Origin: a virus
Virus record (IMG/VR): IMGVR_UViG_3300047509_000062
Span: 1-63,440 of that record
Reading direction: 5' to 3' (one strand)
DNA length: 63,440 nt
The notes under the pieces are model-generated. The model worked only from the letters and a program-made list of their open reading frames with translations. It made no database searches and had not been told where the DNA came from. How positions within the stretch are numbered: the first letter of the stretch is position 1; each line of letters starts with the position of its first letter. Positions 5,946 through 28,708 of the stretch are shown piece by piece. The translations under genes were made by a program, and so were the position numbers.

Positions 5946-6025
5946 GGCCCCACCAACAGGAATGGGAGGGCGAAACACACCGCCATCAGCACGAGCAGGG
6001 CGAGAAATTCGCGGAGGTAGATCAT
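5942..6025 (-). CDS. 27-aa membrane peptide
   Basis: Translation of the 84-nt frame gives MIYLREFLALLVLMAVCFAL, then a short hydrophobic end: one membrane helix with a single Arg/Glu pair at the N-side. Its start overlaps the stop of the pentapeptide-repeat gene and its stop overlaps the next ATG, so it is coupled both ways. Real translation is likely; the role is unknown. Confidence 0.6.
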   Translation of the reverse strand: MIYLREFLALLVLMAVCFALPFLLVGP

Positions 6026-6807
6026 TTGCCAACCTGTTTGGCCGCGCGCTCGCGCATGTCAGCCAGCGCAGCTTCGTTTGAAGCTCCCCAATTAGGAATT
6101 GGCGCATCAGGTGTCGATTTCAGATAGAGCAGCATTCCCGCGTTAGCCGAACCGAATTTGCGCTCCAGCGCGAACCCTTCTTTGCCAGCTAGGCATATCG
6201 CGTAACCGGCGCGGCAATGTGTCGTGTTGCACCAATTCGTTTCGTCGCACGCCGCGCCATGCCAACGGGCCATTTCGAAGCCGTTAGTTTTCTTCGCCTT
6301 GTTTTCTTCGATGGCAGCGAGAATCGCGGCGTCGATGTTGGGAATGAGCGGGACTGTTTCGAGAATGTCTTTGATTTTTGCACCGCGCAGGACGGCACCG
6401 CTCAGGTCGGCACAGCTCAGGACGGCACCGCTCAGGACGGCACCGCTCAGGTCGGCACCGCGCAGGACGGCACCGCTCAGGTCGGCACCGCTCAGGACGG
6501 CACAGCTCAGGTCGGCACCGCGCAGGACGGCACCGCTCAGGACGGCACAGCTCAGGACGGCACCGCTCAGGTCGGCACCGCTCAGGTCGGCACCGCTCAG
6601 GTCGGCACCGCTCAGGACGGCACAGCTCAGGTCGGCACCGCGCAGGACGGCACCGCTCAGGACGGCACAGCTCAGGACGGCACGGCTTTTGTAAGCCCAC
6701 TTCGCGGCAAGCCCGCGCTTCACATAAACGCTCTCGCTTGCTTCGCATTCGATCTCAGCGGTGAATTGAACCTTGCCGCTAAAGCGGTTGAGAATGTCGA
6801 ATTTCAT
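6022..6807 (-). CDS. Pentapeptide-repeat protein, 261 aa
   Basis: Residues ~43-145 are 20 consecutive A(D/V)L(S/R)(C/G) units, the signature of a right-handed quadrilateral beta-helix. It is flanked by an N-terminal cap (MKFDILNRFSGKVQFTAEIE) and a C-terminal domain with FEMARWHGAACDETNWCNTT. Pentapeptide proteins can mimic DNA (MfpA/Qnr protecting gyrase), but many have no known role. The array is made of 15-bp DNA units with 120-bp-spaced larger duplications, so its length may vary between isolates. Confidence 0.9.
   Translation of the reverse strand: MKFDILNRFSGKVQFTAEIECEASESVYVKRGLAAKWAYKSRAVLSCAVLSGAVLRGADLSCAVLSGADLSGADLSGADLSGAVLSCAVLSGAVLRGADLSCAVLSGADLSGAVLRGADLSGAVLSGAVLSCADLSGAVLRGAKIKDILETVPLIPNIDAAILAAIEENKAKKTNGFEMARWHGAACDETNWCNTTHCRAGYAICLAGKEGFALERKFGSANAGMLLYLKSTPDAPIPNWGASNEAALADMRERAAKQVGK
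6380..6685. repeat. 15-bp tandem repeat array inside the pentapeptide gene
   Basis: The plus strand repeats variants of CTCAGGACGGCACCG about 20 times. Within it, 6481-6563 is identical to 6601-6683, a 120-bp-spaced duplication. Because the unit is a multiple of three, gain or loss keeps the reading frame. Confidence 0.95.
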
Positions 6808-8243: not shown

Positions 8244-8966
8244 ATGGCTGAGAATACCGCAATTTCATGGTGTGACTCGACCTTTAATCCATGGGTAGGA
8301 TGCACGAAGATAAGCGCTGCCTGCGATAATTGCTATGCCGAATCGTGGGCGAAGCGCAGTGGTCACGCCGAACTATGGAGCGGGGAGCGCAGGCGCACGA
8401 AAACATGGGGCGACCCGCTAAAGTGGAATCGCGAAGCCGGTTTATGGGGCAAGCGTCCGCGAGTGTTCTGCGCGTCTCTCGCAGACGTGTTCGACAATCA
8501 GGTGCCGCGCGAGTGGCGCGCCGACCTGTGGGCGCTGATTTCCGACTGTCCAAATCTCGACTGGCTGTTGCTCACCAAGCGCCCGCAGAATATCGCCAAG
8601 ATGTTGCCGCCAGCGTGGCCGTGGCCGCATGTTTGGCTCGGCACAACAGTCGAATCGCCGCACGAATATCGCCGCATCAAATATCTGCAAGCCATTCCAG
8701 CTACCGTGCGGTTTCTAAGCATGGAGCCGCTTCTAGCGAGGTGTGACGACATTCCGCTGGACGGTATTCATTGGGTAATTTCCGGGGGTGAGAGCGGCAC
8801 GCATCATCGGCCAATCGACAAAGGATGGGTGCGGTCTATTCGCGACCAATGCGCCGCTCGCGGCATCGCATTTCATCACAAGCAATGGGGCGGCGTAAGA
8901 CCAAAGGCGAACGGCTGCGAGCTTGACGGGCGAGAGTGGAAAGAGTTTCCGAGGCTTGCAGCATGA
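8244..8966 (+). CDS. Gp37/Gp68-like (DUF5131) phage protein, 240 aa
   Basis: Starts with AENTAISWCDSTFNPWVGCT and has CTKISAACDNCYAE, the conserved cysteine cluster of the Gp37/Gp68 family. The spacing C-x6-C-x2-C recalls iron-sulphur or radical-SAM-like proteins. Later SMEPLLA and WVISGGESG are further family hallmarks. Widespread in phages; role not established. ATGA overlap with the next gene. Confidence 0.85.
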   Translation: MAENTAISWCDSTFNPWVGCTKISAACDNCYAESWAKRSGHAELWSGERRRTKTWGDPLKWNREAGLWGKRPRVFCASLADVFDNQVPREWRADLWALISDCPNLDWLLLTKRPQNIAKMLPPAWPWPHVWLGTTVESPHEYRRIKYLQAIPATVRFLSMEPLLARCDDIPLDGIHWVISGGESGTHHRPIDKGWVRSIRDQCAARGIAFHHKQWGGVRPKANGCELDGREWKEFPRLAA

Positions 8967-9322: not shown

Positions 9323-9774
9323 GCGAACACATCCTGCATCGCGGCCACGCACGAAACGCGAAAGGCCGAAACAAATACAGCGACGGCGGCATATGGACCA
9401 CCGAACTGACCGAAGAGATCATTCGCATGTGTCGCGAGCGGTTGTCAGCGGGACAGATCGCAAAGGCGCTGCACATGACGCGCAATCAAGTCATCGGCAA
9501 ATTAAACCGCTTGGGGTTCAAGCTGAACTCGCGAGCCCGCAAGCCGCCGTCTATCCCAGAGCCATCGCCGTCAGAAATCGAAACGCTCAATGTGCCACTG
9601 TCTCAGATGCCGGATCGTGGGGCCTGCAAATTCATCGAGTTCGAACCCATCTATGATGCACTGTGCTGCGGACTGCCGGTCGCGGTTTCTGGAGCATCTT
9701 ACTGTCGTGGGCACATGCGCGTCTGCTATCAGCCAATGAAATCGAAACCTCCTGCGGTGACGGTGGAGGCATGA
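9319..9774 (+). CDS. gcrA: GcrA-family transcription regulator
   Basis: An N-terminal HTH (WTTELTEEIIRMCRERLSAG, then QIAKALHMTRNQVIGKLNRL) is followed by a Pro linker and a C-terminal zinc-type segment (CKFIEF, CCGLPV, YCRGHMRVCY): the GcrA architecture at 151 aa. In Caulobacter and its relatives GcrA binds sigma70 and methylated GANTC promoters to control cell-cycle genes. A phage copy could redirect host transcription or read methylation laid down by the enzyme encoded immediately downstream. Confidence 0.9.
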   Translation: MSEHILHRGHARNAKGRNKYSDGGIWTTELTEEIIRMCRERLSAGQIAKALHMTRNQVIGKLNRLGFKLNSRARKPPSIPEPSPSEIETLNVPLSQMPDRGACKFIEFEPIYDALCCGLPVAVSGASYCRGHMRVCYQPMKSKPPAVTVEA

Positions 9775-11129
9775 GCGAGCGCGTAACTGTCATCCATGCC
9801 GATTGCCGCGAGGCGCTGAAATCACTTGCGGACTGCAGCATTGATGCGTGCATTACCGATCCGCCATATGCGCTTGTGTCTATCACAAAACGCTTTGGAA
9901 AGCCAAACAGCGCGCCCGTCAAGGTCGGCAACGTGCGCGCGTCGAATGATCTCAAAGCCGCTTATGCTCGCCAGTCTGCTGGCTTCATGGGCAAACAATG
10001 GGACAATGGCTCGACCGCATTTGATCCCGACTTCTGGCGCGAAGTTCTGCGTGTTCTCAAGCCCGGTGCGCATGTCGTTTCCTTCGGCGGCACTCGCACT
10101 TATCACCGACTCGTTTGCGCGATCGAGGATGCAGGATTCGAAATCCGCGATCAACTGCAATGGCTATTCGGCAGTGGGTTTCCGAAATCGCATGATGTGA
10201 GCAAGGGCATTGACCGCGCAAACGGAGACGTTCGCGAGGTCGTAGGCATGTCGGCCACTGCCTCCGGTATTTCAAATAAACATGGTGATGTAGGTGGCGC
10301 TACGACGTGGAATCGTGTAGCGGAGCTCGTTCCAATTACTTCGGCGGCTTCGGCGGCTTCGGCGGCTTGGGAAGGCTGGGGCACGGCGCTCAAACCAGCG
10401 AGCGAGCCCATCTGCCTAGCCCGCAAGCCGCTATCGGAGAAGACTGTCGCCGCTAACGTCCTCCGGTGGGGAACCGGCGCGCTGAATATCGATGCATGCA
10501 GGGTTGAGTCGGTTGATATCGTAAGCAACCACGGTGAGACAGGGAACAGCATACCGACCAGCTTTTCTCTTGGTGGGCGTAAGCCGATGCAAACGAATGG
10601 ACCGGCGCTTGGCCGCTGGCCTGCCAACGTCTGCCACGATGGCAGCGAGGAAGTGCTGGCGGCGTTCCCTGAGAGCGACGGACAAGCCGGAACGGTCAAG
10701 GGAACAGAGCCGTCGTCGCCGTTCGCAAACGTTTATGGCGACATGCCAGACAGGGCTGGACGCGCGGAGCCGCGCGGCGATAGCGGTTCAGCAGCGCGGT
10801 TCTTTTTCACGGCGAAAGCGGACGCCGATGATCGGCTAGGCTCAAAGCATCCAACCGTGAAGCCCGTCGAATTGATGCGCTGGCTCGCGCGGCTCGTCAC
10901 GCCTCCCAACGGAATGATTCTAGACCCGTTCGCCGGAACTGGCACGACTGGAATCGCCGCAATCGCTGAGAGCTTCCGCGCCACACTAATCGAGCGCGAG
11001 GACGAATATGTTGCCGACATTCGCACGCGGCTGGAATACTATGCTGGGCGCGGGCCGCTAACCGAACAACTCAAGCAGCGCAATCGCAAGCCGCAAGGTT
11101 CTGCGCCACTATTCGAGGCCGCAGAATGA
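9771..11129 (+). CDS. Site-specific DNA methyltransferase (N6-adenine or N4-cytosine)
   Basis: A 452-aa protein. Motif IV DPPY lies at residues ~30-33 and motif I in ILDPFAGTGTTG near residue 383. HPTVKPVELMRWL precedes it: the beta-type order (catalytic motif first). The middle ~200 residues hold the target-recognition part. It lacks the short CcrM C-terminal signature as far as I can see, so the target is unknown. Starts within the gcrA stop (ATGA). Likely protects phage DNA or marks promoters; no cognate restriction gene is present. Confidence 0.9.
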   Translation: MSERVTVIHADCREALKSLADCSIDACITDPPYALVSITKRFGKPNSAPVKVGNVRASNDLKAAYARQSAGFMGKQWDNGSTAFDPDFWREVLRVLKPGAHVVSFGGTRTYHRLVCAIEDAGFEIRDQLQWLFGSGFPKSHDVSKGIDRANGDVREVVGMSATASGISNKHGDVGGATTWNRVAELVPITSAASAASAAWEGWGTALKPASEPICLARKPLSEKTVAANVLRWGTGALNIDACRVESVDIVSNHGETGNSIPTSFSLGGRKPMQTNGPALGRWPANVCHDGSEEVLAAFPESDGQAGTVKGTEPSSPFANVYGDMPDRAGRAEPRGDSGSAARFFFTAKADADDRLGSKHPTVKPVELMRWLARLVTPPNGMILDPFAGTGTTGIAAIAESFRATLIEREDEYVADIRTRLEYYAGRGPLTEQLKQRNRKPQGSAPLFEAAE

Positions 11130-16253: not shown

Positions 16254-16709
16254 ATGAACGGGGTTTTGATCTTGTGTTTGGGGTGTAAGCAGTGGCACGG
16301 CAATCTCGACCGCTGCCCACCTCCGGGCATGGGATTGCCGCCGCCAGTTTTGAAGGGTGTGAGGGAGGATTGTCCTACCGGGTCGCCGATTGAGACCTTA
16401 CAGGCACCGCGTAAAGACGCAGACAGTCCTAGGCCACTGCCGGCGGTACACGAGGATCGAGGCGTCGTGGTCGAACGCCCCCGGTCGGAGAATTCTCCCC
16501 CTTCGTCTAAAGGCAGGACACCGCGCTTTGGACGCGGCAACCGTGGTTCGACCCCACGAGGGGGAGCCACGGGCGAGCTTGAGGTTCTGAAGGCGAAGAT
16601 TGCTGAGATTGAGGCTGAGAAGGCGGAGCGAAGGGCAAGGACGCTCGAGCGCGTGCGCCGGCACCGGGCGAACGCCAAGGCGAAGGCTGGGAAGGTTGTT
16701 CCTGAATGA
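16254..16709 (+). CDS. ORF of 151 aa overlapping a tRNA gene
   Basis: Open from ATG 16254 to the ATGA overlap with 16706. The last 45 residues are a coherent charged helix (LEVLKAKIAEIEAEKAERRA). The middle is the translated tRNA gene (…RFGRGNRGSTPRGG), and the N-terminus has CLGCKQWHGNLDRCPPPGMG. It may be translated in full, or only a C-terminal part may be genuine. Confidence 0.4.
   Translation: MNGVLILCLGCKQWHGNLDRCPPPGMGLPPPVLKGVREDCPTGSPIETLQAPRKDADSPRPLPAVHEDRGVVVERPRSENSPPSSKGRTPRFGRGNRGSTPRGGATGELEVLKAKIAEIEAEKAERRARTLERVRRHRANAKAKAGKVVPE
16496..16569 (+). tRNA. tRNA-Gln (anticodon UUG)
   Basis: A 74-nt cloverleaf. Acceptor TCCCCCT/AGGGGGA, D stem GTCT/GGAC, anticodon stem CCGCG/CGCGG with loop CTTTGGA (anticodon TTG, reads CAA), T stem CGTGG/CCACG with TTCGACC, discriminator G and encoded CCA. 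All stems pair. It may supplement the rarer Gln codon during phage expression. It is embedded in an open reading frame. Confidence 0.96.
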
Positions 16710-16930
16710 CCGTCGAATCGACATTCATCTACCGGGTTGTTGTCGTTACACTGGCGGCGGTGATTGTGTGCGTGGTGGCGGCACTTCTCGTCGGGCTCTT
16801 CGATCCGCGCGTGGACAATGACAAAATCTTCCCCATCGTCGGGCACGCATTTGATACAATCACAGGTGCCTTTGTCGGCATTCTGAGCGGTCTTGTCATG
16901 GGCAAGCAGTCGAGGAAGGAGGGCGAATGA
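16706..16930 (+). CDS. Two-helix membrane protein, 74 aa
   Basis: VVVVTLAAVIVCVVAALLVG and TITGAFVGILSGLVMG are two hydrophobic segments separated by a charged loop (FDPRVDNDK), with a basic C-terminus, a class-II-holin-like layout. It is far from the endolysin gene, so a holin role is only a possibility. ATGA overlaps on both sides. Confidence 0.65.
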   Translation: MTVESTFIYRVVVVTLAAVIVCVVAALLVGLFDPRVDNDKIFPIVGHAFDTITGAFVGILSGLVMGKQSRKEGE

Positions 16931-17745
16931 CCGTGCCGCTTCCACAAAACAAGTACCAGATAATTCAGCAGCATCTTGCCATGCAGCAAGCGGCGCAGCA
17001 GCCGATGGCAATGCAGGGAGTCAGCCTGCAACCGCAACAATATCAAGGATACCTGAACTCACTTATGGGTCAATCGCAAGCCTCAACGGTCATTGCCGCA
17101 GGGGCAGGCTACACCAACCAACTTATGCTAATTTACCATCCACAGGAGATCAACTACGATGGCGCAGATTGGAAAGCCGAAGAAGAAATTTGTTTCGATC
17201 CCGTTGACGGAACCTGTGCCGTCGCTGCCAGAGCCGAACGGGCCTTGCGTCAGGTCGCCAACGCTTCCAGAGTCGCTGCCTATATCGGAGCCTCTCTTTG
17301 CGCCGCCTTCAAACCTCCCATCGAAAACGCCGGAATACGTATAGGCGAGATCGAGGCGTTCCGCTGCTGGAATGTGCTGTGTGGAAAGCTTCAGAGCGTT
17401 GCACATCAAACGATATGGCCTGACGACTGGAAGATTGAGGCCGACAATCTTCCAGAGGAAGACAACTGGCACGGCATCTATGCGTACAAAACCGAGCAGG
17501 ACGCGATAGCTCACGGCGGCATGGTGGCCGGGAAGGTCAAGTTGTGGGGCCAGATTATCGAGCATGAGGAAGGATATCGGGCGCAATATGCGAAGGTCGT
17601 AAGCATCGATCATTTCCTGCACGGTACGTCGCGTGATTGCCTTCGAGTGCGAGAGCCGGAGCGCCAGCCAATTATCGCCAACTCAGGCAACTGGACAGGC
17701 TACGGATTGTGTAATGATGGCTCACTGTATCAGGTAGACCCATGA
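16927..17745 (+). CDS. Hypothetical protein, 272 aa, composite appearance
   Basis: Residues ~1-65 are Gln-rich (NKYQIIQQHLAMQQAAQQPM). Residues ~143-255 (AFRCWNVLCGK, GIYAYKTEQDAIA, VKLWGQIIEHEEGYRA) match a domain that I know as a free-standing small protein in actinobacterial and rhizobial phages. The section between is weak and overlaps another well-positioned frame (17159-17344). The true gene may be two proteins fused by loss of a stop. Confidence 0.55.
   Translation: MTVPLPQNKYQIIQQHLAMQQAAQQPMAMQGVSLQPQQYQGYLNSLMGQSQASTVIAAGAGYTNQLMLIYHPQEINYDGADWKAEEEICFDPVDGTCAVAARAERALRQVANASRVAAYIGASLCAAFKPPIENAGIRIGEIEAFRCWNVLCGKLQSVAHQTIWPDDWKIEADNLPEEDNWHGIYAYKTEQDAIAHGGMVAGKVKLWGQIIEHEEGYRAQYAKVVSIDHFLHGTSRDCLRVREPERQPIIANSGNWTGYGLCNDGSLYQVDP
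17159..17344 (+). CDS. Pro-rich protein, 61 aa, nested in another frame
   Basis: AGGAG lies 10 nt before ATG 17159. MAQIGKPKKKFVSIPLTEPV followed by a P-E-P-rich tail is the style of small phage proteins ('IGEPKR...PLEEPVP') that usually precede the domain encoded by the 3' part of 16927-17745. Its stop coincides with where that domain begins. Plausibly the real gene here. Confidence 0.45.
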   Translation: MAQIGKPKKKFVSIPLTEPVPSLPEPNGPCVRSPTLPESLPISEPLFAPPSNLPSKTPEYV

Positions 17746-18575
17746 TTATCGCGCTGGCTTCCGACCACAACGGCGTCACGCTGAAATCCCGTCTCAAGTG
17801 TGATCTTGCTGAGTTGACGAAACACCGCTTTATCGACCTCGGGCCACTCGGTTCATGGGCAGTGGACTATACCACCTACGCCCGCCAGTTGGGGGAGATA
17901 GTTGCGAGCGGAGATGTTGCCCGCGGCATTCTGATCTGTGGGACCGGCGTCGGCATGTCGATCGTGGCGAACAAGGTTGCGGGCGTTAGGGCGGCGCTCG
18001 TCCACAACATGCTCTGCGCCGGCAAGTCTAGGGAGCATAACGACGCCAATGTTCTCTGCCTCGGTTCCTGGGTTGCGAGCGACGAACAGAATATCGCCTT
18101 CGCGCGTGAATGGCTACATGGATCGTTCGGAGAGGGTCGCCATGTTCGCCGCGTCGAGCAGATCGAGCGCAGGCCGGGGCGGCTCGTATTCGCGAACGGG
18201 GTATTTGATATCCTCCATCAGGGCCATATTGATTTGCTGCGCTGGGCCAAGTCGCTTGGCTCGTGGCTGGTTGTCGGCATCAATTCGGATGATAGCGTGA
18301 GGCGGTTGAAAGGCAACGGTCGCCCAATCAATCGCGCCGAAAACCGCAAGGCGATTCTCGAATGCCACCGCTTTGTCGATGAGGTGATTATCTTCGACGG
18401 CGAACCTTCTGAGCTGGTCGAACAAATCCATCCCGATATTGTCGTCAAAGGTTCCGAATGGACGGCGGCGGAGGTTCGTGAGCGCGATGCTATCCCAGAT
18501 TGGTGCGAGGTCAAGGTGTTTCCCATCGTGGCAGGATATTCCACCACGCAGATTGTCGAGAGGATGAGAGCATGA
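17742..18575 (+). CDS. RpiB-like isomerase fused to an HldE-type nucleotidyltransferase
   Basis: A 277-aa protein. Residues 1-~145 are RpiB/LacA/B type: ALASDHNG, ILICGTGVGMSIVANKVAGV, HNDANVLCLG. Residues ~148-277 are the HldE C-terminal adenylyltransferase: FANGVFDILHQGHIDLL (the HxGH nucleotide motif), GINSDDSVRRLKGNGRP, VDEVIIFDGEPSELV, PDIVVKGSEW. The first half would interconvert aldose and ketose phosphates; the second joins a sugar-1-phosphate to a nucleotide (ATP in HldE). The fusion puts the first and last steps of a heptose pathway on one chain. ATGA overlaps both ways. Confidence 0.88.
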   Translation: MIIALASDHNGVTLKSRLKCDLAELTKHRFIDLGPLGSWAVDYTTYARQLGEIVASGDVARGILICGTGVGMSIVANKVAGVRAALVHNMLCAGKSREHNDANVLCLGSWVASDEQNIAFAREWLHGSFGEGRHVRRVEQIERRPGRLVFANGVFDILHQGHIDLLRWAKSLGSWLVVGINSDDSVRRLKGNGRPINRAENRKAILECHRFVDEVIIFDGEPSELVEQIHPDIVVKGSEWTAAEVRERDAIPDWCEVKVFPIVAGYSTTQIVERMRA

Positions 18576-18781
18576 AAAAGAAAATTAACGGAGGAACGGC
18601 CACATTTCATAGAGCAGAGAGAGGATGGCATTGGACGGTACACCGACGTTTGAAAAATCCCCCGCCTCTTATAACCAAAGAGGGAAAGATATTTTATTGT
18701 TGGGATAGCGTGCAGAGCGGCTTCGGATGGGTTCCGTCGCTTAATGCGGCGCGTAGTATGGCCCACAGTTTATTGCGATGA
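18572..18781 (+). CDS. Hypothetical protein, 69 aa
   Basis: MKKKINGGTATFHRAERGWH, then WTVHRRLKNPPP, ending LNAARSMAHSLLR; a small aromatic beta-rich protein. ATGA overlaps link it tightly into the sugar cassette, but no enzymatic motif is visible. Confidence 0.65.
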   Translation: MKKKINGGTATFHRAERGWHWTVHRRLKNPPPLITKEGKIFYCWDSVQSGFGWVPSLNAARSMAHSLLR

Positions 18782-19434
18782 ACGTCTCCGAAGCCTGCCG
18801 CGAACTTGCAGCGCACGGCCTTGTCCCGTGGTCGAGCGGGAATGCGAGTGTCCGCGAAAGCCATGTCTCGAAAGAGTGTCCGAGTGGTATGGACTATATG
18901 CGGATCAAAGGAACGGGGTTTCGTTGCTCGCGAGCAACCGACACAAACATAGCCTTAGTACAAATTGTTGACGGGTACATATGTGGAGAGCCTAAACCAT
19001 CCACCGACTCCGAAGCCCACCGCTGGATTTACAACCACCTCCCCGATATCAACGGGGTGGTTCACACTCACAGCCACTATGCTACTACATTCGCGGTCTC
19101 GCACAAGGAAATTCCCTGCTGCATGACGCAGATGGAGGACGTGTTCGGCGGCAATATCCCGCTCTCAGAATACTGCCAGATCGGCGGCGAGGACATCGGC
19201 AAGGAGGTTGTGAGGCTATACGAGCGCACGCATGTCCCTGCCGTCCTGATACGCTCACATGGCCTGTTTACGATAGGCGATACGCTGGAGAACGCAGTCC
19301 GCAACGCCATCCTAGCCGAACACTGCGCCGCAATCGCATGGCGCGCGATGCAGATGGGAAACGTGTTTGTGCCGAGCAAGGAAGAGATTGCGAAGAACCA
19401 CGAACGCTATACGAACGAATACGGCCAGCCATGA
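18778..19434 (+). CDS. Class II aldolase / AraD-like 4-epimerase
   Basis: A 218-aa protein. GLVPWSSGNASVR (phosphate site), GVVHTHSHYATTFAV (zinc His pair) and LIRSHGLFTIG (third zinc His) define the fold. HTHS.YAT with MEDVFGGNIPLSEY resembles L-ribulose-5-phosphate 4-epimerase more than fuculose aldolase. It would epimerise or cleave a ketose phosphate feeding the cassette. Coupled to the kinase gene by ATGA. Confidence 0.85.
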   Translation: MNVSEACRELAAHGLVPWSSGNASVRESHVSKECPSGMDYMRIKGTGFRCSRATDTNIALVQIVDGYICGEPKPSTDSEAHRWIYNHLPDINGVVHTHSHYATTFAVSHKEIPCCMTQMEDVFGGNIPLSEYCQIGGEDIGKEVVRLYERTHVPAVLIRSHGLFTIGDTLENAVRNAILAEHCAAIAWRAMQMGNVFVPSKEEIAKNHERYTNEYGQP

Positions 19435-20390
19435 ACGTACACGAACTCCTCGCCTCATTCGAGAGCAAGCGTATATTAGTTGTGGGCGATCTCGTCATAG
19501 ATATCGCGACACACCTTGAACGCATCAAGGATGACGACACCGGCAAGCCCACCTACCGCACGATACTGGACGAGCGCGGCAAGGCGGATCGTTTCTCCAT
19601 CGGCGGCGCCGGTCTCGTGGTTCGCAACCTTCTGGAACTCGGGGCCAAGGTGGATTTTATTACCGCGACCGGCTACGGCACAGGCTCTCTCCATGCCGAG
19701 ACATTCCAGCATATCAATCTCACGAAGCACGCAATCAAGGTCGCCAAGCCACAGACAGTCAAGCACCGCTTCTGGTGCGGCGGCGAGAAGGTGATGCAGG
19801 TTGATACGGTGGATAATTCACCGCTTGAGTGGGTTGATGAAACGTCGCTGTGGGTTCAGTGGGATATGAGCGTAGGTCTGTTCTCAAAATCTCACGACGC
19901 GATCATTGTTGCAGATTATCGACACGGACTTATAAACGAGGACACCGCGCACCGCATCGTGAAAGCTCGCAACAAAGATATTCCTCTCTACGTCTCCTCT
20001 CAGGTCGCGCAGTCTGGAAGCAATCACGAATGGTATGTTGCGCCAAATGTCGTCATTGTGATGAATAAACACGAGGCGGAGGAGAGTGGTCTGTCGGCAT
20101 GTGATTCGTTCCGTGAGGCGATAGTAACGGACGGTGATCGCGGAGGGTGGATTTACACACCGAAGGGAATAGAGAATTGGGGTCCGGCATTCGTGAACGC
20201 AATCGATCCGTGCGGTGCCGGCGATGCTTTCCTAGCCGCATACTCTCTCACGCACGACCTGCAATTCGCCAACACATGGGCTGGATTGAGCGTAACCGTT
20301 CAAGGCGCAAATCCTCCGACGAAACAGATGCTCCTCGGCTGGCACGAGAAGCAAAACTTCGAGCCGTTTGAAATGGCGTTCTGCGGATGA
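19431..20390 (+). CDS. PfkB-family sugar kinase of HldE N-terminal type
   Basis: A 319-aa protein. ILVVGDLVIDIATHLERI opens the fold; GGAGLVVRNLLELGAKVDF is the substrate glycine segment. TVKHRFWCGGEKVMQVD matches the HldE kinase stretch (TvKtRfiaggqqllRlD). DPCGAGDAFLAAYS holds the anion hole and catalytic Asp. HldE kinase makes heptose-1,7-bisphosphate. In bacteria it is fused to the nucleotidyltransferase; here that partner is fused to RpiB instead. The start at 19431 is fixed by the ATGA overlap. Confidence 0.88.
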   Translation: MNVHELLASFESKRILVVGDLVIDIATHLERIKDDDTGKPTYRTILDERGKADRFSIGGAGLVVRNLLELGAKVDFITATGYGTGSLHAETFQHINLTKHAIKVAKPQTVKHRFWCGGEKVMQVDTVDNSPLEWVDETSLWVQWDMSVGLFSKSHDAIIVADYRHGLINEDTAHRIVKARNKDIPLYVSSQVAQSGSNHEWYVAPNVVIVMNKHEAEESGLSACDSFREAIVTDGDRGGWIYTPKGIENWGPAFVNAIDPCGAGDAFLAAYSLTHDLQFANTWAGLSVTVQGANPPTKQMLLGWHEKQNFEPFEMAFCG

Positions 20391-20761
20391 AGCGCCAACT
20401 GGAAAGAAAGGTCACATATTGGGGCGGCGTTGATTTCGTCCGCGCCTCGACGGGGCTTGCGGTTAAGGTTATTTACATGCGTTCTGGGTGTCAAAGCAGC
20501 CTCGAATACCATGTCAAAAAGCACGAAATCTATTGGCTGGCGGAAGGCGAATTGAAGATTGGCTTGCGTTCTGGACGCGGCGTCAATTCATCCGTCACGC
20601 TGAAAGAAGGCGAGTGCTATGAGATAGCTCCCGGAACGATGCACATGCGTATCGCGCTCACGGACTGCGCGATATACGAAGCCTGTTCCTATGACGATGA
20701 TTCTGATACGTTCATCGTTGAGCCGGGAGAAACGTATCAACACAAGGACACAATCGCATGA
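20387..20761 (+). CDS. Cupin (mannose-6-phosphate isomerase-like), 124 aa
   Basis: SSLEYHVKKHEIYWLAEGEL and GECYEIAPGTMHMRIAL are the two cupin motifs with metal-binding His/Glu. The size fits the single-domain cupins fused to or paired with GDP-mannose pyrophosphorylases. It could isomerise or epimerise a sugar phosphate. Overlaps its neighbours by four bases. Confidence 0.8.
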   Translation: MKRQLERKVTYWGGVDFVRASTGLAVKVIYMRSGCQSSLEYHVKKHEIYWLAEGELKIGLRSGRGVNSSVTLKEGECYEIAPGTMHMRIALTDCAIYEACSYDDDSDTFIVEPGETYQHKDTIA

Positions 20762-21498
20762 GCGAATTTTTCCTCGACAGCGCCAACCTTGACGACATCA
20801 AAGCCTGCGTCGAGCGCGGCATCATCTCGGGAGTAACGGTCAACCAATCTCTCCTCGCCAAGGAGCCGAAGCGGCCCTACGAGGAGCATCTTGCGGACAT
20901 CGTCAACCTGCTGCGTCCCGACAAGCTGCATCTCAGCGCGCCGGTCCCAGAAGGTACACCGGAGCAGATGATTGAAGCCGGTAAACAACTACGTGCCGCG
21001 CTGCGTTACGAAAATCTCGCACTCAAAGTGCCGGTATCGTGGGCAATGCTTCCCGTCATCCACGAACTCAGCAAGACGGGTGCCGTGAATGCGACATGCG
21101 TATTCACCGCGCTACAGGCGAAGCTGGGCGCTGATGCAGGCGCGAACGCTGTCTCCGTATTCGTGGGCCGCATCAATGATGCAGACGAGCCTCAGAAGCA
21201 GGCGGGCTACACGGTGCTGCGCGATGTTCACTTGCGTAGATATAACGACCAACCAATCGAGACACATGCGAAAGCAACCCTATTCAATCCGGCACCCGCG
21301 CCAGAGAAGAAGGTTATTCTCCCCCGCATCATCGCCGGCAGCATCCGCGATTCCGACATGGCTAAAGCGGCCATCCTTGCGGGCGCAGATATCGTCACCA
21401 CCTCTCGCGCCGTTCTGGAAGCAATGGCAACTGACGCACATTCACAGACCTCAATCGACAAATTCAACGCGGACTGGACGGCATGGACCAGCCCGTAA
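20758..21498 (+). CDS. tal: Transaldolase / fructose-6-phosphate aldolase family
   Basis: A 246-aa protein of the short TalC/FSA type. FFLDSANLDDIKAC (catalytic Asp), GVTVNQSLLAKE, LALKVPVSW (Schiff-base Lys), VNATCVFTALQA, SVFVGRI, IIAGSIRDS. All key residues are present, with an insertion near residues 160-185. Many phages carry transaldolases to bend the pentose phosphate pathway; here it could supply sedoheptulose-7-phosphate or a related ketose to the cassette. Confidence 0.88.
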   Translation: MSEFFLDSANLDDIKACVERGIISGVTVNQSLLAKEPKRPYEEHLADIVNLLRPDKLHLSAPVPEGTPEQMIEAGKQLRAALRYENLALKVPVSWAMLPVIHELSKTGAVNATCVFTALQAKLGADAGANAVSVFVGRINDADEPQKQAGYTVLRDVHLRRYNDQPIETHAKATLFNPAPAPEKKVILPRIIAGSIRDSDMAKAAILAGADIVTTSRAVLEAMATDAHSQTSIDKFNADWTAWTSP

Positions 21499-22910
21499 AC
21501 AATCTGTTCTCGCTCCGTCGCAAGCAGGCCATCGAATTCGTCAATCAGGGCGTGATCGACACGAACGGCGCCAATGGACTGCCCAAGAATCCGCAACTTG
21601 GGTATCAGAAAATATGCTCTGCCGTCGAAATCGACCCGACATTCGCGCACGGCTGGTTCAATGTCGGCAACGCGAACGGTGACTTGAAGCTGGGGCGGGC
21701 TGCTGTTGCGGCCTATAGACGCGCGCTACAGATGAAAAAGGGCACCGAGATTGGCGATCTCACGGCGAACTACCGCGCGCATTGCCTCTGCAACCTGGGC
21801 CACAGCCTCTATCATCTGGGAAAACTGGACGAAGCCAAGCAGCACACTCTAGCGTCAATCGAGATGGACAACAAGCTCGCCTTCTCGTGGATCAATCTCT
21901 CCATGATCCAATCCATGCAGGGCGAGGACGAAGCGGCGGAAGTATCAGCCCGCAAGGCACATTTTCTGGACTCGGGGAACGCTGCCATTGAAGTTGGATT
22001 GGCCTTTTCTCTGCTACATCAGAAGAAATATGAGGAGGGTTTACGAGCCTTTGAAGCCCGCTACCCGTATAAGCTCACGCATTTCCTCCAGTACCCATAC
22101 CCGCAATGGAAGGGGGAGAATGGCGCCGAATTATTCCTCTGCTCCGATCAGGGGCTTGGTGATTCGATCGATTTCCTCCGCTTCGTTCCAGAAGTGCAGA
22201 AGCGGTGCAAGCATGTCTGGCTCGGCTGCCAGCAGGAATTGATCTCGACCGTGCAGGCCATGTTCGGCCACTATGAGAATTTTACGTTCCTTCCTCTCCC
22301 CCAACCGTTCCCGCCCGCTACCCATTGGGCGGCGCTGATGAGCCTGCCGACCGCTCTGAGGCTCAACGACAAGCAGATCGCCAATACGCCGATGCCGGAA
22401 TGCAAGGTGCCGGATACCGCTGCACCGTGGAAGAACGAGAACGCAAAGTTTCATGTCGGCATCGCGTGGGCAGGATCGCCGATGAACGAGGTTGACCAAT
22501 ACCGCTCCGCATCGGTGGATAATTTCCTCGAGCTGGCCCGCGTGCCGAATGTTCAACTCTATTCGTTGCAGGTTGGCGAGCGAGCGCCGGAACTGCACAT
22601 CGCAGGCGCGGCCACAATCCTCAAAGACCTGTCGGCGTACATCCGAACGGTCATGGATACGCTTTCCATTCTCAAACATCTCGACATGGTGATTTGCGTC
22701 GATACCGGCGTGGGGCACATGGCCGGGATGATGGATGTGGAAACGTGGATACCCGTGGCGTATAACGGTTGCTGCTGGCGATTTACGCGGCACGGGGAGA
22801 GTGCGTTGTGGTATGGAAAACACCGCCTGTTCAGGCAAGGCGCAGACGCCAAGTGGGAGCCAGTGTTCGAAAATATCGTCGCTGAATTGGATCGGAAAGT
22901 GAATGGCTGA
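21483..22910 (+). CDS. TPR glycosyltransferase with a GT9-like C-terminal domain
   Basis: A 475-aa protein. Residues ~30-190 are TPR helices (DPTFAHGWFNVGNANGDL, AFSWINLSMIQSMQ). The remainder is GT-B-like: FHVGIAWAGSP, then DMVICVDTGVGHMAGMMDVE and VAYNGCCWRF. The D(T/S)...HMAG motif is that of ADP-heptose glycosyltransferases (GT9) and of TPR-linked relatives. It is the natural consumer of an ADP-heptose-like donor made by the upstream genes. The acceptor is unknown. Overlaps the transaldolase gene by 16 bp. Confidence 0.82.
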   Translation: MDQPVNNLFSLRRKQAIEFVNQGVIDTNGANGLPKNPQLGYQKICSAVEIDPTFAHGWFNVGNANGDLKLGRAAVAAYRRALQMKKGTEIGDLTANYRAHCLCNLGHSLYHLGKLDEAKQHTLASIEMDNKLAFSWINLSMIQSMQGEDEAAEVSARKAHFLDSGNAAIEVGLAFSLLHQKKYEEGLRAFEARYPYKLTHFLQYPYPQWKGENGAELFLCSDQGLGDSIDFLRFVPEVQKRCKHVWLGCQQELISTVQAMFGHYENFTFLPLPQPFPPATHWAALMSLPTALRLNDKQIANTPMPECKVPDTAAPWKNENAKFHVGIAWAGSPMNEVDQYRSASVDNFLELARVPNVQLYSLQVGERAPELHIAGAATILKDLSAYIRTVMDTLSILKHLDMVICVDTGVGHMAGMMDVETWIPVAYNGCCWRFTRHGESALWYGKHRLFRQGADAKWEPVFENIVAELDRKVNG

Positions 22911-24022: not shown

Positions 24023-24270
24023 GTGAAGAAACAGATTTCTCTAAGCCATTCCGTGCGATGGCAACCCGCATAGACATGAACGCGAAAGAGGGGTTCAGCG
24101 GGGCGTTTGTGATTAGACCGCCGGGGGATCAGCCAGAGGTCGCGTTGCTCCTGCTCCATAACAAGGAAGACGCCGCTATGTTCTGGAGTCTCGTGAAAAC
24201 GAAGGCTGAAATCGCGTTGCAGGAACTCGCCTCTGCAGAACAACAAAACCAATGGCATGGACGGCGGTAG
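24019..24270 (+). CDS. Hypothetical protein, 83 aa
   Basis: GFSGAFVIRPPGDQPEVALL, then LHNKEDAAMFWSLVKTKAEI. A small alpha/beta sequence found next to terminase genes; related in style to 26179-26421 (both have a strand pair followed by a helix). Function unknown. Confidence 0.65.
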   Translation: MSEETDFSKPFRAMATRIDMNAKEGFSGAFVIRPPGDQPEVALLLLHNKEDAAMFWSLVKTKAEIALQELASAEQQNQWHGRR

Positions 24271-24277
24271 ATGCGTC

Positions 24278-26182
24278 ATGTCGTCATGGACAAGGCAAAA
24301 GCGGGAGACATTCGAAGCCGCGTTCTATGAATTTCTAGGCACGGTCTACATCAATTCCAAAGACCTTGGGAAAACATGCCTCGGAGATAACATCTACGAA
24401 GCGCAGCGCCGCTTTATATCCACTGTCCTAGACGGGCTGGAAGAGGACATTCACAACATCTACGTGTTGAAGAGTCGGCAGCTTGGCCTCTCGACTATCT
24501 CGCGCGCCTTCACGGTGTTCTATCTCGGGATGCACGATGGGTTAGGCGGCGCAACTGTATTCGACACGGACGAGAACAAGAACAACGCCCGCCGTGAAAT
24601 CGAGAGCATGATTACTAATCTGCCGAAGTCGATACAGTTTCCGCGCATAAAGGGGAACAATCGTGGCGGGATATTTCTGCAAAACGAATCCGGCATTCGC
24701 TTCATGGCGGCGGGCGTTAAAAAGAGTAAATCGAGCGGCGTGCTTGGTCGATCCGTTGGCCTCTCATTCGCCCACTGTTCGGAGCTATGTTCGTGGGATG
24801 CTGGAGAGGGTGTTGAGGCGTTCATCAATTCGCTATCGGAAGAAAACCCCGACCGTCTGTATATTTGGGAAAGTACCGCGCGAGGATTCAACTTATGGCA
24901 CGAGCTGTGGACCACGGCTCGCGAAGACATAAATCATTCGAAGTGTTTGTTCCTCGGCTGGTATCTGAAGCCAAACCAGCAGATCAAGCGCAGCGATCCA
25001 GATTTCGAACGATACGGCGTCGATCCTCCATCCAAGAAGGAAATGAAGCGCATCAACGAGGTGCGCGAGAAGTACAACTGGAACATCACGCCGGAACAGC
25101 TCGCATGGGTTCGTCGCAAGATGGACCCGACTGCGAAAGCGGAAGGCGATGCAAAGGCGGAATATGTAGGTAGTACGCTTCGATTGCAGGAGCAACCCTG
25201 GACCGAAGAAGACGCTTTCCAGATGACGGGAGCGACGTTCTTTGATCCTCCCACGCTGACGGAGATGGCAAACAAGCACGTCAACAAGAAATTCAAGACC
25301 TATAGTTACGCTCCGGGGATAGAGTTTTCGGATTGCAAGATATATCCGGCTCACAATGCGCGTTCCGTCGAATTGAAAGTGTGGGAGGAACCGGAGGAGG
25401 GAGCAACCTATGTGGTATCTGCTGACGTTGCGTTCGGCATCAACGAGAAGAATGATAGGTCCGCGGTTCAGGTTCTTCGATGCTATGCGGACGGTCTGGA
25501 TCAGGTTGCGGAATACGCTTGGCCGCTGATTAACAGCCGCGCGTTCGGTTGGGTGATAGCTTCGTTGCTAGGCTGGTACGCTGGCGAAACCGCCGATGTG
25601 TATCTCATTCTGGAATTGAATGGCCCCGGCGAGGCGACATGGAACGAACTGCAATCGCTGAAACGCTATCTCGCGATGCCGTATGAGCCGAAGCAGGTGG
25701 AGGAAAAGGGCCTTCGCAACATCTTCCGCAACGTCAAGAGCTATATCTACACCCGTTCGGATTCTATGAGTGCCGGCCATGCGTTGCAATTCAAGACGAC
25801 CACGCAGCTCAAGGTCACGATCATGGAGAGGTTGCGGGATTTCGTCTCCAACGGTATGCTTCATGTGCGGTCTCTGGACACGATAGAGGAGATGAGATCG
25901 GTTGCCCGCGACGGAGATTCAATCGAGGCGCAGGGGTCGAAGAAAGACGACCGCGTTATGTCTCTGGCCCTTGGGGTGCATTGCTGGGAAGCAAAGCCGC
26001 GACGAATCATGATGGCGCAGAAGCTCACTCGGGAGAATGTGATCGCCCGGAAGCGCCTGACCGTCAAGGACCAATATCAGCTTTACAACACAAACCAGTT
26101 GCAGACATTCTTCGATGCGAAGCGTAAGCAGCGGGTGGCGACCGCAGCGGCAATTCGACGGGCGTCATGGAGAAGCAGATGA
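24278..26182 (+). CDS. terL: Terminase large subunit
   Basis: About 634 aa. IYVLKSRQLGLSTISRAFTV is the Walker-A-like ATPase motif with its catalytic Arg/Lys. LSFAHCSEL is the Walker B/Glu region and IWESTARG the coupling motif. The C-terminal nuclease has VVSADVAFG, LILELNGPG and DDRVMSLALGVH, the three acidic clusters of the RNase-H-like fold. It packages DNA through the portal. ATG 24278 is preferred over 24257 because it avoids overlap with the previous gene. No separate small subunit is evident. Confidence 0.93.
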   Translation: MSSWTRQKRETFEAAFYEFLGTVYINSKDLGKTCLGDNIYEAQRRFISTVLDGLEEDIHNIYVLKSRQLGLSTISRAFTVFYLGMHDGLGGATVFDTDENKNNARREIESMITNLPKSIQFPRIKGNNRGGIFLQNESGIRFMAAGVKKSKSSGVLGRSVGLSFAHCSELCSWDAGEGVEAFINSLSEENPDRLYIWESTARGFNLWHELWTTAREDINHSKCLFLGWYLKPNQQIKRSDPDFERYGVDPPSKKEMKRINEVREKYNWNITPEQLAWVRRKMDPTAKAEGDAKAEYVGSTLRLQEQPWTEEDAFQMTGATFFDPPTLTEMANKHVNKKFKTYSYAPGIEFSDCKIYPAHNARSVELKVWEEPEEGATYVVSADVAFGINEKNDRSAVQVLRCYADGLDQVAEYAWPLINSRAFGWVIASLLGWYAGETADVYLILELNGPGEATWNELQSLKRYLAMPYEPKQVEEKGLRNIFRNVKSYIYTRSDSMSAGHALQFKTTTQLKVTIMERLRDFVSNGMLHVRSLDTIEEMRSVARDGDSIEAQGSKKDDRVMSLALGVHCWEAKPRRIMMAQKLTRENVIARKRLTVKDQYQLYNTNQLQTFFDAKRKQRVATAAAIRRASWRSR

Positions 26183-26421: not shown

Positions 26422-26987
26422 CCAAGATGCGGACCTACGAATGCCCTTCATGCGTTGGACGCTTCGAATATCTGCATCATCCCAATGTCCAAGCTGACCC
26501 CCCTCCCCGTTTCTGTCCTCTATGCGGCTTCGACACGCTCGCGGACGAAGCATTGGCTCTCACGGTTCCTATTACGTCTCCGCACATTCAGAACTCGGCT
26601 GTCGTTAAGGGTGTGGATGGCGCATGGCAGGCCGAACAGGAAGGAGCGAAATTCAGGGCCGAATTGAGTGGCGAATCGTCTCTCTCTATCACGGACATGA
26701 AGGACAATCTCAGGGCGGGGGATATCACGGCAATTCCGGTCAACAATACCGTCACGCAGGCCATGGAGCAGACTCCGGGGCAATTCGGCTGGCAACGCGA
26801 ACAGGGACTAGCCGTGTCTCAACTGGCCCATTCGTTCCCCGATCCACGCCTCGGCAAGGTGATTATGCCCAACGCTGGCGCAAGGGCCATGAATGCTGTA
26901 CGTTCGGCTCACGCGGCGGCTGGCGGGACCATAACCGATACTCCGGCGCTTGAGACGCAACAGCCGGGATATCGGAGACGGGCGTGA
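26418..26987 (+). CDS. Zinc-ribbon protein, 189 aa
   Basis: TYECPSCVGRFEYLHHP and RFCPLCGFDT give a CxxC...CxxC ribbon. The rest is low-complexity (Gln/Ala/Pro) with QFGWQREQGLAVSQLAHSFP. Sits between the terminase and portal genes, so it may act in packaging or assembly; not recognised more precisely. Confidence 0.65.
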   Translation: MTKMRTYECPSCVGRFEYLHHPNVQADPPPRFCPLCGFDTLADEALALTVPITSPHIQNSAVVKGVDGAWQAEQEGAKFRAELSGESSLSITDMKDNLRAGDITAIPVNNTVTQAMEQTPGQFGWQREQGLAVSQLAHSFPDPRLGKVIMPNAGARAMNAVRSAHAAAGGTITDTPALETQQPGYRRRA

Positions 26988-28708
26988 TCCGGTTAGACAC
27001 TGAAAACCGCAGGAAGCTCACAAGTCAGGTTCTCGAAATTGCCGACTCGTGCCGCGCTTCTCAGGGCATGAGGGCGGCGTATTACAGGCTTCTCAGCGCC
27101 CTTTGCGATACCGGAACACAGGACGGCGAACGCTCGCTAATCAACAAGCTCTATAACCATATCGACCGTCTAGCCGCCCATCTTTTCAGCCCGACATCTC
27201 TGCAATTCAACATCGATTTCGAGAATGTGTATCCGAAGAACGTCATGGAACGTGGACACGCGGCGGCGCGCATTCTCACTCGCCAATTCGAGCGGTCGAA
27301 TACCGACACGACCTTTGCCCGCGGGGTGTTCGAAGCCCTGAAATATGGGGCCGCTATCCTGAAACAATGGCCTGAACAGGTTGAGGACGGCAAGGTAGAG
27401 TATCAGAAATCCATCGTCATGCCGTGGCAGTTTTCGGTCTATCGCGAGGACATGAACGACCTGTCAAAGCAATCTGCCATGTGCGAGACGGCCATGCTTA
27501 CGTTGCCGGAAGTATGGCGGCGCATCTATCACTTCCCGGACGCGGACAAGCTATTCACAAGGATCAAGACGCACGCGCAACGCGGCGATGCCGATTCGGA
27601 ATACAACAGCTTCTTTCATCAGGTGCTATCGACTTCTCAGTTACAGACAGGGATTCAGGGTGCGACACGACCGATACCGGGAGGCATAGTCCAGCTCGCC
27701 AACAATCCGAATCAGGCGGTCATGTCGCCGCAGTTGTCCGTCGATCTCGTCAAATTCCACGAGGTTTGGGTGCAGGGCGAGAAGGATTACGTCACGCTGC
27801 AAATCATCGAGCCTGACGTTCTCATAGCCCCGAGACCGGATTTCAAGCTGTCGAACCTGCTAATTTCCGGCGACAATCATTCAGGAGTCCACCCATACAC
27901 GCTTATCCAGCCCAACGAAGTGCAGGGCTATTTCTTCGGGCGGTCAGAACTCACCGACCTCATGCGGCCACAGGAATTGCTGTCGATATTCACCGACGAT
28001 GCAAAGCGTCTCGTAGGGCTTCAGATCGACAAGATCATCGGATTTGTCGGGTTCGACGGGTTGACAGACGAGCTATACGACCAGCAACGGAACGCCGGAT
28101 TTGTCAATGCCCCACAGGGCACAACGATGACGGACCTTACCCCGAAATTCCCATCCGAACTCCTGCCATTCATCCAGTTTCTGATTACCACCGTTGACCA
28201 GATGGGAGGCTTCGATAACATCCTCGCCGGCAAGGGCGAGCCCGGAGTTAGAGCAGGAAGTCACGCACAGACATTGCTGAAAACGGCTTCTCCACGTCTC
28301 CGGGATCGTTCCTTGCTTGTGGAACGCCAGTGTGCCCAAGCCGCAGATTTGCTTCTAACCGTAATGGAAGCCAAGGACGCGCACAATTACTGGACGGACG
28401 GGACCGATCTAAAGACGATTGAGCAGTCATCCTTCAAGCTGGACGATTTACCGGAAGATCGCCGCGTTTCAGTCGATTCGCATTCTTCCAGCCCGATATT
28501 TGCCGACGATCATCAGCAACTCATCGCGTTCGGATTGCAGGCTGGGATCATCGACGGCCACTATGCAATAGACAATCTGCCGTATCCCGACAAGGAACGG
28601 GCTCACGCGAATTTACGGGACAAGGAAAAGAGGGAAGCGGAATTGCTCCAGCAGCATCCTGAATTGCTGGAGAAGATGGTTGGTAAAGGCGGCGGTCACA
28701 AACACTAG
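26984..28708 (+). CDS. Portal protein
   Basis: 574 aa. An N-terminal helical part (ADSCRASQGMRAAYYRLLSA) and a wing with ALKYGAAILKQWPEQVEDGK and VMPWQFSVYREDMND. The stem/crown region reads RPQELLSIFTDDAKRLVGLQ and DNILAGKGEPGVRAGSHAQT. Length, order (terL before, scaffold and capsid after) and these features fit a podovirus-type portal. ATGA overlap with the previous gene. Confidence 0.85.
   Translation: MIRLDTENRRKLTSQVLEIADSCRASQGMRAAYYRLLSALCDTGTQDGERSLINKLYNHIDRLAAHLFSPTSLQFNIDFENVYPKNVMERGHAAARILTRQFERSNTDTTFARGVFEALKYGAAILKQWPEQVEDGKVEYQKSIVMPWQFSVYREDMNDLSKQSAMCETAMLTLPEVWRRIYHFPDADKLFTRIKTHAQRGDADSEYNSFFHQVLSTSQLQTGIQGATRPIPGGIVQLANNPNQAVMSPQLSVDLVKFHEVWVQGEKDYVTLQIIEPDVLIAPRPDFKLSNLLISGDNHSGVHPYTLIQPNEVQGYFFGRSELTDLMRPQELLSIFTDDAKRLVGLQIDKIIGFVGFDGLTDELYDQQRNAGFVNAPQGTTMTDLTPKFPSELLPFIQFLITTVDQMGGFDNILAGKGEPGVRAGSHAQTLLKTASPRLRDRSLLVERQCAQAADLLLTVMEAKDAHNYWTDGTDLKTIEQSSFKLDDLPEDRRVSVDSHSSSPIFADDHQQLIAFGLQAGIIDGHYAIDNLPYPDKERAHANLRDKEKREAELLQQHPELLEKMVGKGGGHKH

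Follow-up and report, generated by a model that had tools for sequence, protein, structure and literature searches.

A conserved phage cassette with an RpiB–nucleotidyltransferase fusion and a predicted role in sugar activation and transfer

Several described systems resemble the phage cassette presented here. One is the bacterial ADP-heptose pathway, which comprises GmhA, HldE, GmhB and HldD together with a GT9 glycosyltransferase. The cassette shares with it an HldE-like kinase and nucleotidyltransferase, a HAD phosphatase, which is found in relatives of the cassette, and a glycosyltransferase that is GT9-like by remote homology. It differs in having RpiB, fused to the nucleotidyltransferase, instead of GmhA, and in carrying an additional predicted 4-epimerase, a transaldolase and a cupin. 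Furthermore, its kinase and nucleotidyltransferase are separate proteins that score below the equivalog cut-offs. An SDR profile had no match in the window, that is, in the whole 63,440-nt (63.4 kb) stretch of an IMG/VR virus record that was analysed. The protein O-glycosyltransferases OGT and SPINDLY offer a second comparison: judged from a predicted model, the glycosyltransferase of the cassette would likewise join an N-terminal TPR superhelix to a C-terminal GT-B domain, but the sequence of the latter is GT9-like and not GT41-like.

Sugar-activation cassettes are already known from phages. Sugar clusters of cyanophages and jumbo phages contain cupin isomerases, PfkB kinases, HIGH-superfamily nucleotidyltransferases, HAD phosphatases and glycosyltransferases (PMC7824862), heptose genes occur in cyanophages (PMC7378029), and rfaE occurs in pelagimyophages (PMC7029224). 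The present locus resembles these clusters as a phage-borne set of kinase, nucleotidyltransferase, cupin and glycosyltransferase thought to make an activated sugar. However, as far as they were searched, the three papers do not name an RpiB–nucleotidyltransferase fusion, and no description of a module containing it was found in open-access papers.

Gene content of the cassette

The cassette is located just upstream of the packaging genes. Its seven overlapping genes are present as the initial annotation had claimed, at 17742-22910 and all on the + strand, with overlaps of 4-16 bases between neighbours (taken from the ORF list; the start and overlap of g2 were read directly). The start of the kinase gene is corrected to 19431.

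16927-17745, + strand: g0, 272-aa protein without known family (ORF, 4-bp overlap with g1)
17742-18575, + strand: g1, RpiB isomerase (residues 1-143) fused to an HldE-type nucleotidyltransferase (146-276) (Pfam/NCBIfam, conserved residues)
18572-18781, + strand: g2, 69-aa protein, seen only in this phage (ORF)
18778-19434, + strand: g3, AraD-type class II aldolase/4-epimerase (Pfam/NCBIfam, metal ligands and catalytic residues)
19431-20390, + strand: g4, PfkB kinase, HldE domain I-like (Pfam/NCBIfam, GAGD and KxR motifs)
20387-20761, + strand: g5, cupin (weak Pfam/PHROG matches, AlphaFold model)
20758-21498, + strand: g6, TalC/FSA-size transaldolase (Pfam/NCBIfam, Lys90)
21483-22910, + strand: g7, TPR domain and GT-B (GT9-like) glycosyltransferase (TPR Pfam, model, remote profile matches)
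24257-26182, + strand: terminase large subunit (PHROG terminase and phage tblastn; 52% identity to the relative phage G1554)

Three family libraries were searched: Pfam, NCBIfam and PHROGs. None of them provides a family for g0, which is probably co-transcribed with the cassette and is not part of the module in other loci. The 69-aa product of g2 keeps its label as an unknown, with no relative in the three libraries and no tblastn match in fusion loci. Promoter and terminator scans gave no more matches than shuffled sequence. A tRNA-Gln gene (ttg) lies just upstream of the operon at 16496-16569, within an ORF at 16254-16709. The left arm of the window encodes RecT (1454-2662, - strand), a DUF5131 protein (8244-8966) and an N6/N4 DNA methylase (9663-11129), as well as a protein at 6022-6807 (-) that appears pentapeptide-repeat-like on reading its translation (SGADLSGAVLSC...).

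Profile searches, which the initial annotation had proposed as a check, confirm the RpiB–nucleotidyltransferase fusion, the AraD-type aldolase, the PfkB kinase, the transaldolase and the TPRs. The N-terminal half of g1 matches LacAB_rpiB in Pfam (1.9e-44), with ribose-5-P isomerase B as the nearest NCBIfam family, and the C-terminal half matches CTP_transf_like (2.2e-16). The best specific NCBIfam match of the nucleotidyltransferase is RfaE domain II (TIGR02199), at 148 bits and thus below the equivalog cut-off of 181.5. Identity to other fusions is 49-63%. Residues D8, H9, C66, H99, N100, R133 and R137 of the RpiB part, together with G161-H162 and the KG..RP motif of the nucleotidyltransferase, are invariant in 29 aligned fusions, and T68 and H159 are nearly so; the catalytic roles given to these positions are those generally known for RpiB and HIGH-superfamily nucleotidyltransferases. 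The early reading of g1 as a fusion is borne out by these matches and residues, the RpiB part combining the Pfam family with all of the catalytic Cys, His, Asn and Arg.

The kinase g4 matches PfkB (2.3e-12), and its best specific NCBIfam match is RfaE domain I (TIGR02198), with 74 bits against an equivalog cut-off of 345. The GAGD and KxR motifs are invariant in 24 module kinases, and g4 is predicted to phosphorylate an aldose phosphate at C1; a phmmer search with it found no match in the PDB. Of the proposal that both HldE activities are encoded, it stands that the kinase and the nucleotidyltransferase are nearest to HldE, but both remain below the NCBI equivalog cut-offs.

The g3 protein belongs to Aldolase_II (4.6e-42), and L-ribulose-5-P 4-epimerases are its nearest NCBIfam family. 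The metal ligands H96, H98 and H161 are invariant in 17 module members, as are the AraD-like residues D77, D121 and Y215, the columns of which correspond to AraD D76, D120 and Y229. Since this catalytic set is complete, as the initial AraD-like assignment would have it, it points to 4-epimerisation by g3.

The cupin g5 is weak in sequence (1.6e-3) and confident as a fold in the AlphaFold model (pLDDT 91), and it is 42-51% identical to module cupins; the cupin call is upheld. Its Foldseek matches are cupins of a generic kind (cysteine dioxygenase, oxalate decarboxylase, CapF, lyxose isomerase) that point to no particular reaction, and a scan for further loci with the cupin retained none.

A TAL_FSA match (7e-32) confirms the transaldolase family of g6, the predicted source of a ketose phosphate. 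The Schiff-base Lys90 and other active-site columns are kept. However, the active-site Glu column, occupied by Glu in 17/17 aligned relatives, holds Pro in the window: residues 60-63 (20935-20946) read S-A-P-V, and most relatives have S-V-E-V. The transaldolase step may therefore be lost or altered in this phage. Missing catalytic residues had been named at the outset as evidence that would count against the cassette; they are kept in g1, g3 and g4, and the Glu to Pro change in g6 is the exception.

The module in viruses and cells

The same gene order had been suggested as something to look for in other phages, and the set recurs in 51 viral contigs and six cellular loci, in two main orders. 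A scan with the single protein detected the full fusion in three viral contigs, with epimerase, kinase, cupin and transaldolase adjoining. An alignment-based scan found it in 51 other IMG/VR contigs, many of which are near-copies, and the fusion tree was built on 44 distinct sequences, window and cellular ones included. At least six cellular genomes carry it, namely metagenome-assembled genomes (MAGs) of Acidobacteria, Longimicrobiales, an archaeon and Parcubacteria, a Prochlorococcus single cell and a further Parcubacteria-phylum genome. The modules in the MAGs assigned to Acidobacteria and Longimicrobiales (L059 and L060) are near-identical, by recent transfer or by a binning error.

Gene calling and clustering define a common set of fusion, kinase, epimerase, cupin, transaldolase and a HAD phosphatase of 100-118 aa. 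It occurs as fusion-kinase-epimerase-cupin-transaldolase-HAD or as HAD-fusion-epimerase-kinase-cupin-transaldolase, and the window follows the latter arrangement but lacks the HAD gene. All five partners are present in 43/51 viral fusion loci, some of the other eight being cut by contig ends. RpiB-only control loci have at most one partner (n=103; 28 viral, 75 cellular), and two or more were found in 0/103. The co-occurrence is thus far from chance, and the cassette is real and conserved. Three module loci (L157, L172 and L061) have no AraD-type epimerase gene; the epimerase step may be optional and may set the stereochemistry of the product. In L149 (13379-14883), L150 (10375-11879) and L154 (12685-14161), a second set of nucleotidyltransferase, kinase and cupin directly follows the fusion module, as if two activated sugars were made.

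In phage loci with the nucleotidyltransferase but no RpiB, the kinase is found in 53/54, the cupin in 43/54, HAD in 7, the transaldolase in 3/54 and the epimerase in 0/54, although the partner profiles were built from fusion loci and may under-count distant homologues in this group. These loci bear on whether the genes instead boost pentose-phosphate carbon flow for nucleotide supply, with the nucleotidyltransferase and glycosyltransferase incidental. A carbon-flow role has been suggested for talC of cyanophages, and both transaldolase and RpiB belong to the pentose-phosphate pathway. Such a function is nevertheless highly improbable for the cassette, in which RpiB and a sugar-1-phosphate nucleotidyltransferase form a single polypeptide. 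Kinase and cupin accompany the nucleotidyltransferase even where RpiB is lacking, RpiB-only phage loci do without the partners, and glycosyltransferases flank several module loci.

Samples of the respective phyla or genera yielded the full fusion in 1/386, 2/380, 1/298, 1/297 and 1/200 genomes, and with one exception the genome matched was the query itself. The module is hence rare in the sampled cellular genomes, at about 1 per 200-400 per group. In a collection of 50,697 records, no true phage record has the full fusion; the sole record with more than 80% coverage is a Salmonella HldE.

The closest fusion to g1 belongs to G1554 (62% identity). The fusion tree groups the two with a support of 98/92, but they are flagged as a long-branch pair. 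In addition to the terminase, G1554 has a counterpart of the protein at 26984-28708 (47% identity), and its transaldolase gene is directly followed by a TPR-glycosyltransferase gene that overlaps it by 16 bases, just as g7 overlaps g6 in the window, the product being 32% identical to g7.

The absence of GmhB remarked on in the initial annotation is a true absence in the window, since a search with the module HAD profile, filters off, found no HAD phosphatase there. None was found in the 23-kb fragment of G1554 either, so that this lineage would need a host phosphatase, and a host HAD enzyme presumably acts in it. A HAD phosphatase with a DxDxT-type motif is nonetheless present in 47 related loci, and a GmhB-like step is, by sequence, part of the module in most relatives. 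In two Patescibacteria (L062, 9602-10843; L142, 3321-4421), one ORF contains both the cupin and a HAD-phosphatase-like stretch.

The missing phosphatase and the Glu to Pro change in g6 could also mean that the cassette is decaying and inactive in the window phage. This is distinctly unlikely: all ORFs are intact and overlapping, the other catalytic residues are kept, and the base composition of the cassette matches that of the phage. Moreover, the set without HAD persists in G1554 at 32-62% identity, which implies selection.

Predicted pathway and identity of the sugar

That the cassette activates a sugar and transfers it, as first proposed, is well supported by the enzyme families, the catalytic residues and the conserved synteny. 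It is very likely that some activated sugar is made. In the route we propose, the transaldolase g6 would supply a ketose phosphate, most simply sedoheptulose-7-phosphate, and g3 would invert C4 by a retro-aldol/aldol reaction. The RpiB domain of g1 would take the part of GmhA and isomerise the ketose phosphate, and g4 would add a phosphate to C1 of the resulting aldose phosphate. The terminal phosphate would be removed by the module HAD in relatives and presumably by a host HAD here. The nucleotidyltransferase domain of g1 would then add an NMP to give an NDP-sugar. This would be transferred by g7, the acceptor probably being part of the virion or of the host surface. Families, catalytic residues, gene set and gene order are observed; from these we infer direction, substrate, nucleotide and acceptor. 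We consider it reasonably probable that a nucleotide-activated aldose is made in the infected cell by this route and attached to an acceptor.

GmhA (SIS-fold, PF13580) is absent from the window and 47 related viral records (n=48), which fits RpiB as the isomerase. It was likewise not found in the nucleotidyltransferase-only phage loci, where it had been expected as a contrast, so that its absence is not by itself a mark of the fusion group.

The sugar was initially called "probably a heptose", and the gene set gives mixed indications. The transaldolase suggests sedoheptulose-7-P, and the HldE-like kinase and nucleotidyltransferase and the GT9-like transferase suggest a heptose, while RpiB and AraD suggest a pentose. 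The nearness to HldE speaks for the initial call; the scores below the equivalog cut-offs, RpiB in the place of GmhA and the likeness of g3 to L-ribulose-5-P 4-epimerases speak against it. A heptose remains the best guess, with an even chance of being right.

A pentose such as NDP-L-arabinofuranose could arise from xylulose-5-P via L-ribulose-5-P (AraD-type enzyme) and L-arabinose-5-P (RpiB), followed by C1 phosphorylation, dephosphorylation and activation. The relatives of RpiB and AraD act mainly on C5 sugars, which counts against a heptose, and the nearest families of the g1 N-terminal half and g3, along with the complete AraD set of g3, are those this route calls for. It is a serious rival but less likely than not, as it offers no obvious role for the transaldolase, present in 47/51 viral loci, and as the kinase and nucleotidyltransferase are nearest to heptose enzymes and the glycosyltransferase to heptosyltransferase II.

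If the sugar is a heptose, its stereochemistry can be predicted. Ribose, allose and galactose phosphates are the established cases: in the products of RpiB-family enzymes the C2 hydroxyl has the ribose/galactose orientation, opposite to that set by GmhA. The heptose route thus predicts D-glycero-D-galacto-heptose, or D-glycero-D-gluco-heptose without g3, and not the D-manno sugar of GmhA.

The glycosyltransferase and its acceptor

The TPRs of g7 are matched by Pfam, and its AlphaFold model (pLDDT 82) combines helical TPRs with an alpha/beta region at the C-terminus. With the whole chain, the best Foldseek matches in the PDB are SPINDLY and OGT, at low TM-scores of about 0.2-0.4 and about 12% identity. 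A profile of the glycosyltransferase half has ADP-heptose:LPS heptosyltransferase II (WaaF) as its best PDB match, a weak one (E=0.007). Glyco_transf_9 is matched by 4/15 g7 relatives (best 2.8e-6) but not by g7 itself, and Pfam scans of g7 and its relatives gave no match to GT41. Of the initial TPR-GT9-like description, the TPR part is secured by sequence, and GT9 survives as remote homology only.

As a single query, g7 found no relatives in the viral contigs; they were found with an alignment that includes two phage relatives. In the vicinity of phage TPR-glycosyltransferase relatives, a major capsid gene and a long tail fibre gene were found. Among fusion loci, the g7 type is common only to the window and G1554. 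The others carry other glycosyltransferases, and acceptors may therefore vary from phage to phage.

Phage DNA was one of the targets first considered, and glycosylation of phage DNA, which would protect it against restriction, is a well-known phenomenon; the window phage does carry a glycosyltransferase. This target is now less likely, as no gene of the thymidylate synthase/dCMP-hydroxymethylase family was found in the window. The TPRs of g7 and a model closest to protein O-glycosyltransferases also argue against it, leaving DNA glycosylation with very little probability.

The acceptor could plausibly be a virion protein. This rests on the OGT/SPINDLY-like layout of g7 and on G1554, where genes that look fibre- or tailspike-like from the appearance of their sequences lie between epimerase and kinase and after the glycosyltransferase. 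The chance that the acceptor is a protein is slightly short of even. More doubtful is a fuller version, in which an RpiB–nucleotidyltransferase route spread mainly by phages makes a gluco/galacto NDP-heptose that an OGT-like phage enzyme puts on virion proteins, e.g. tail fibres.

The cassette represents a nearly complete and testable gene set for an unassigned nucleotide-sugar pathway, and the exchange of the isomerase predicts a stereochemistry unlike that of the standard heptose route. Its rarity in sampled cells and recurrence in viral contigs suggest that phages keep the module for their own use, either to coat their virions with sugar or to alter the surface of the host.
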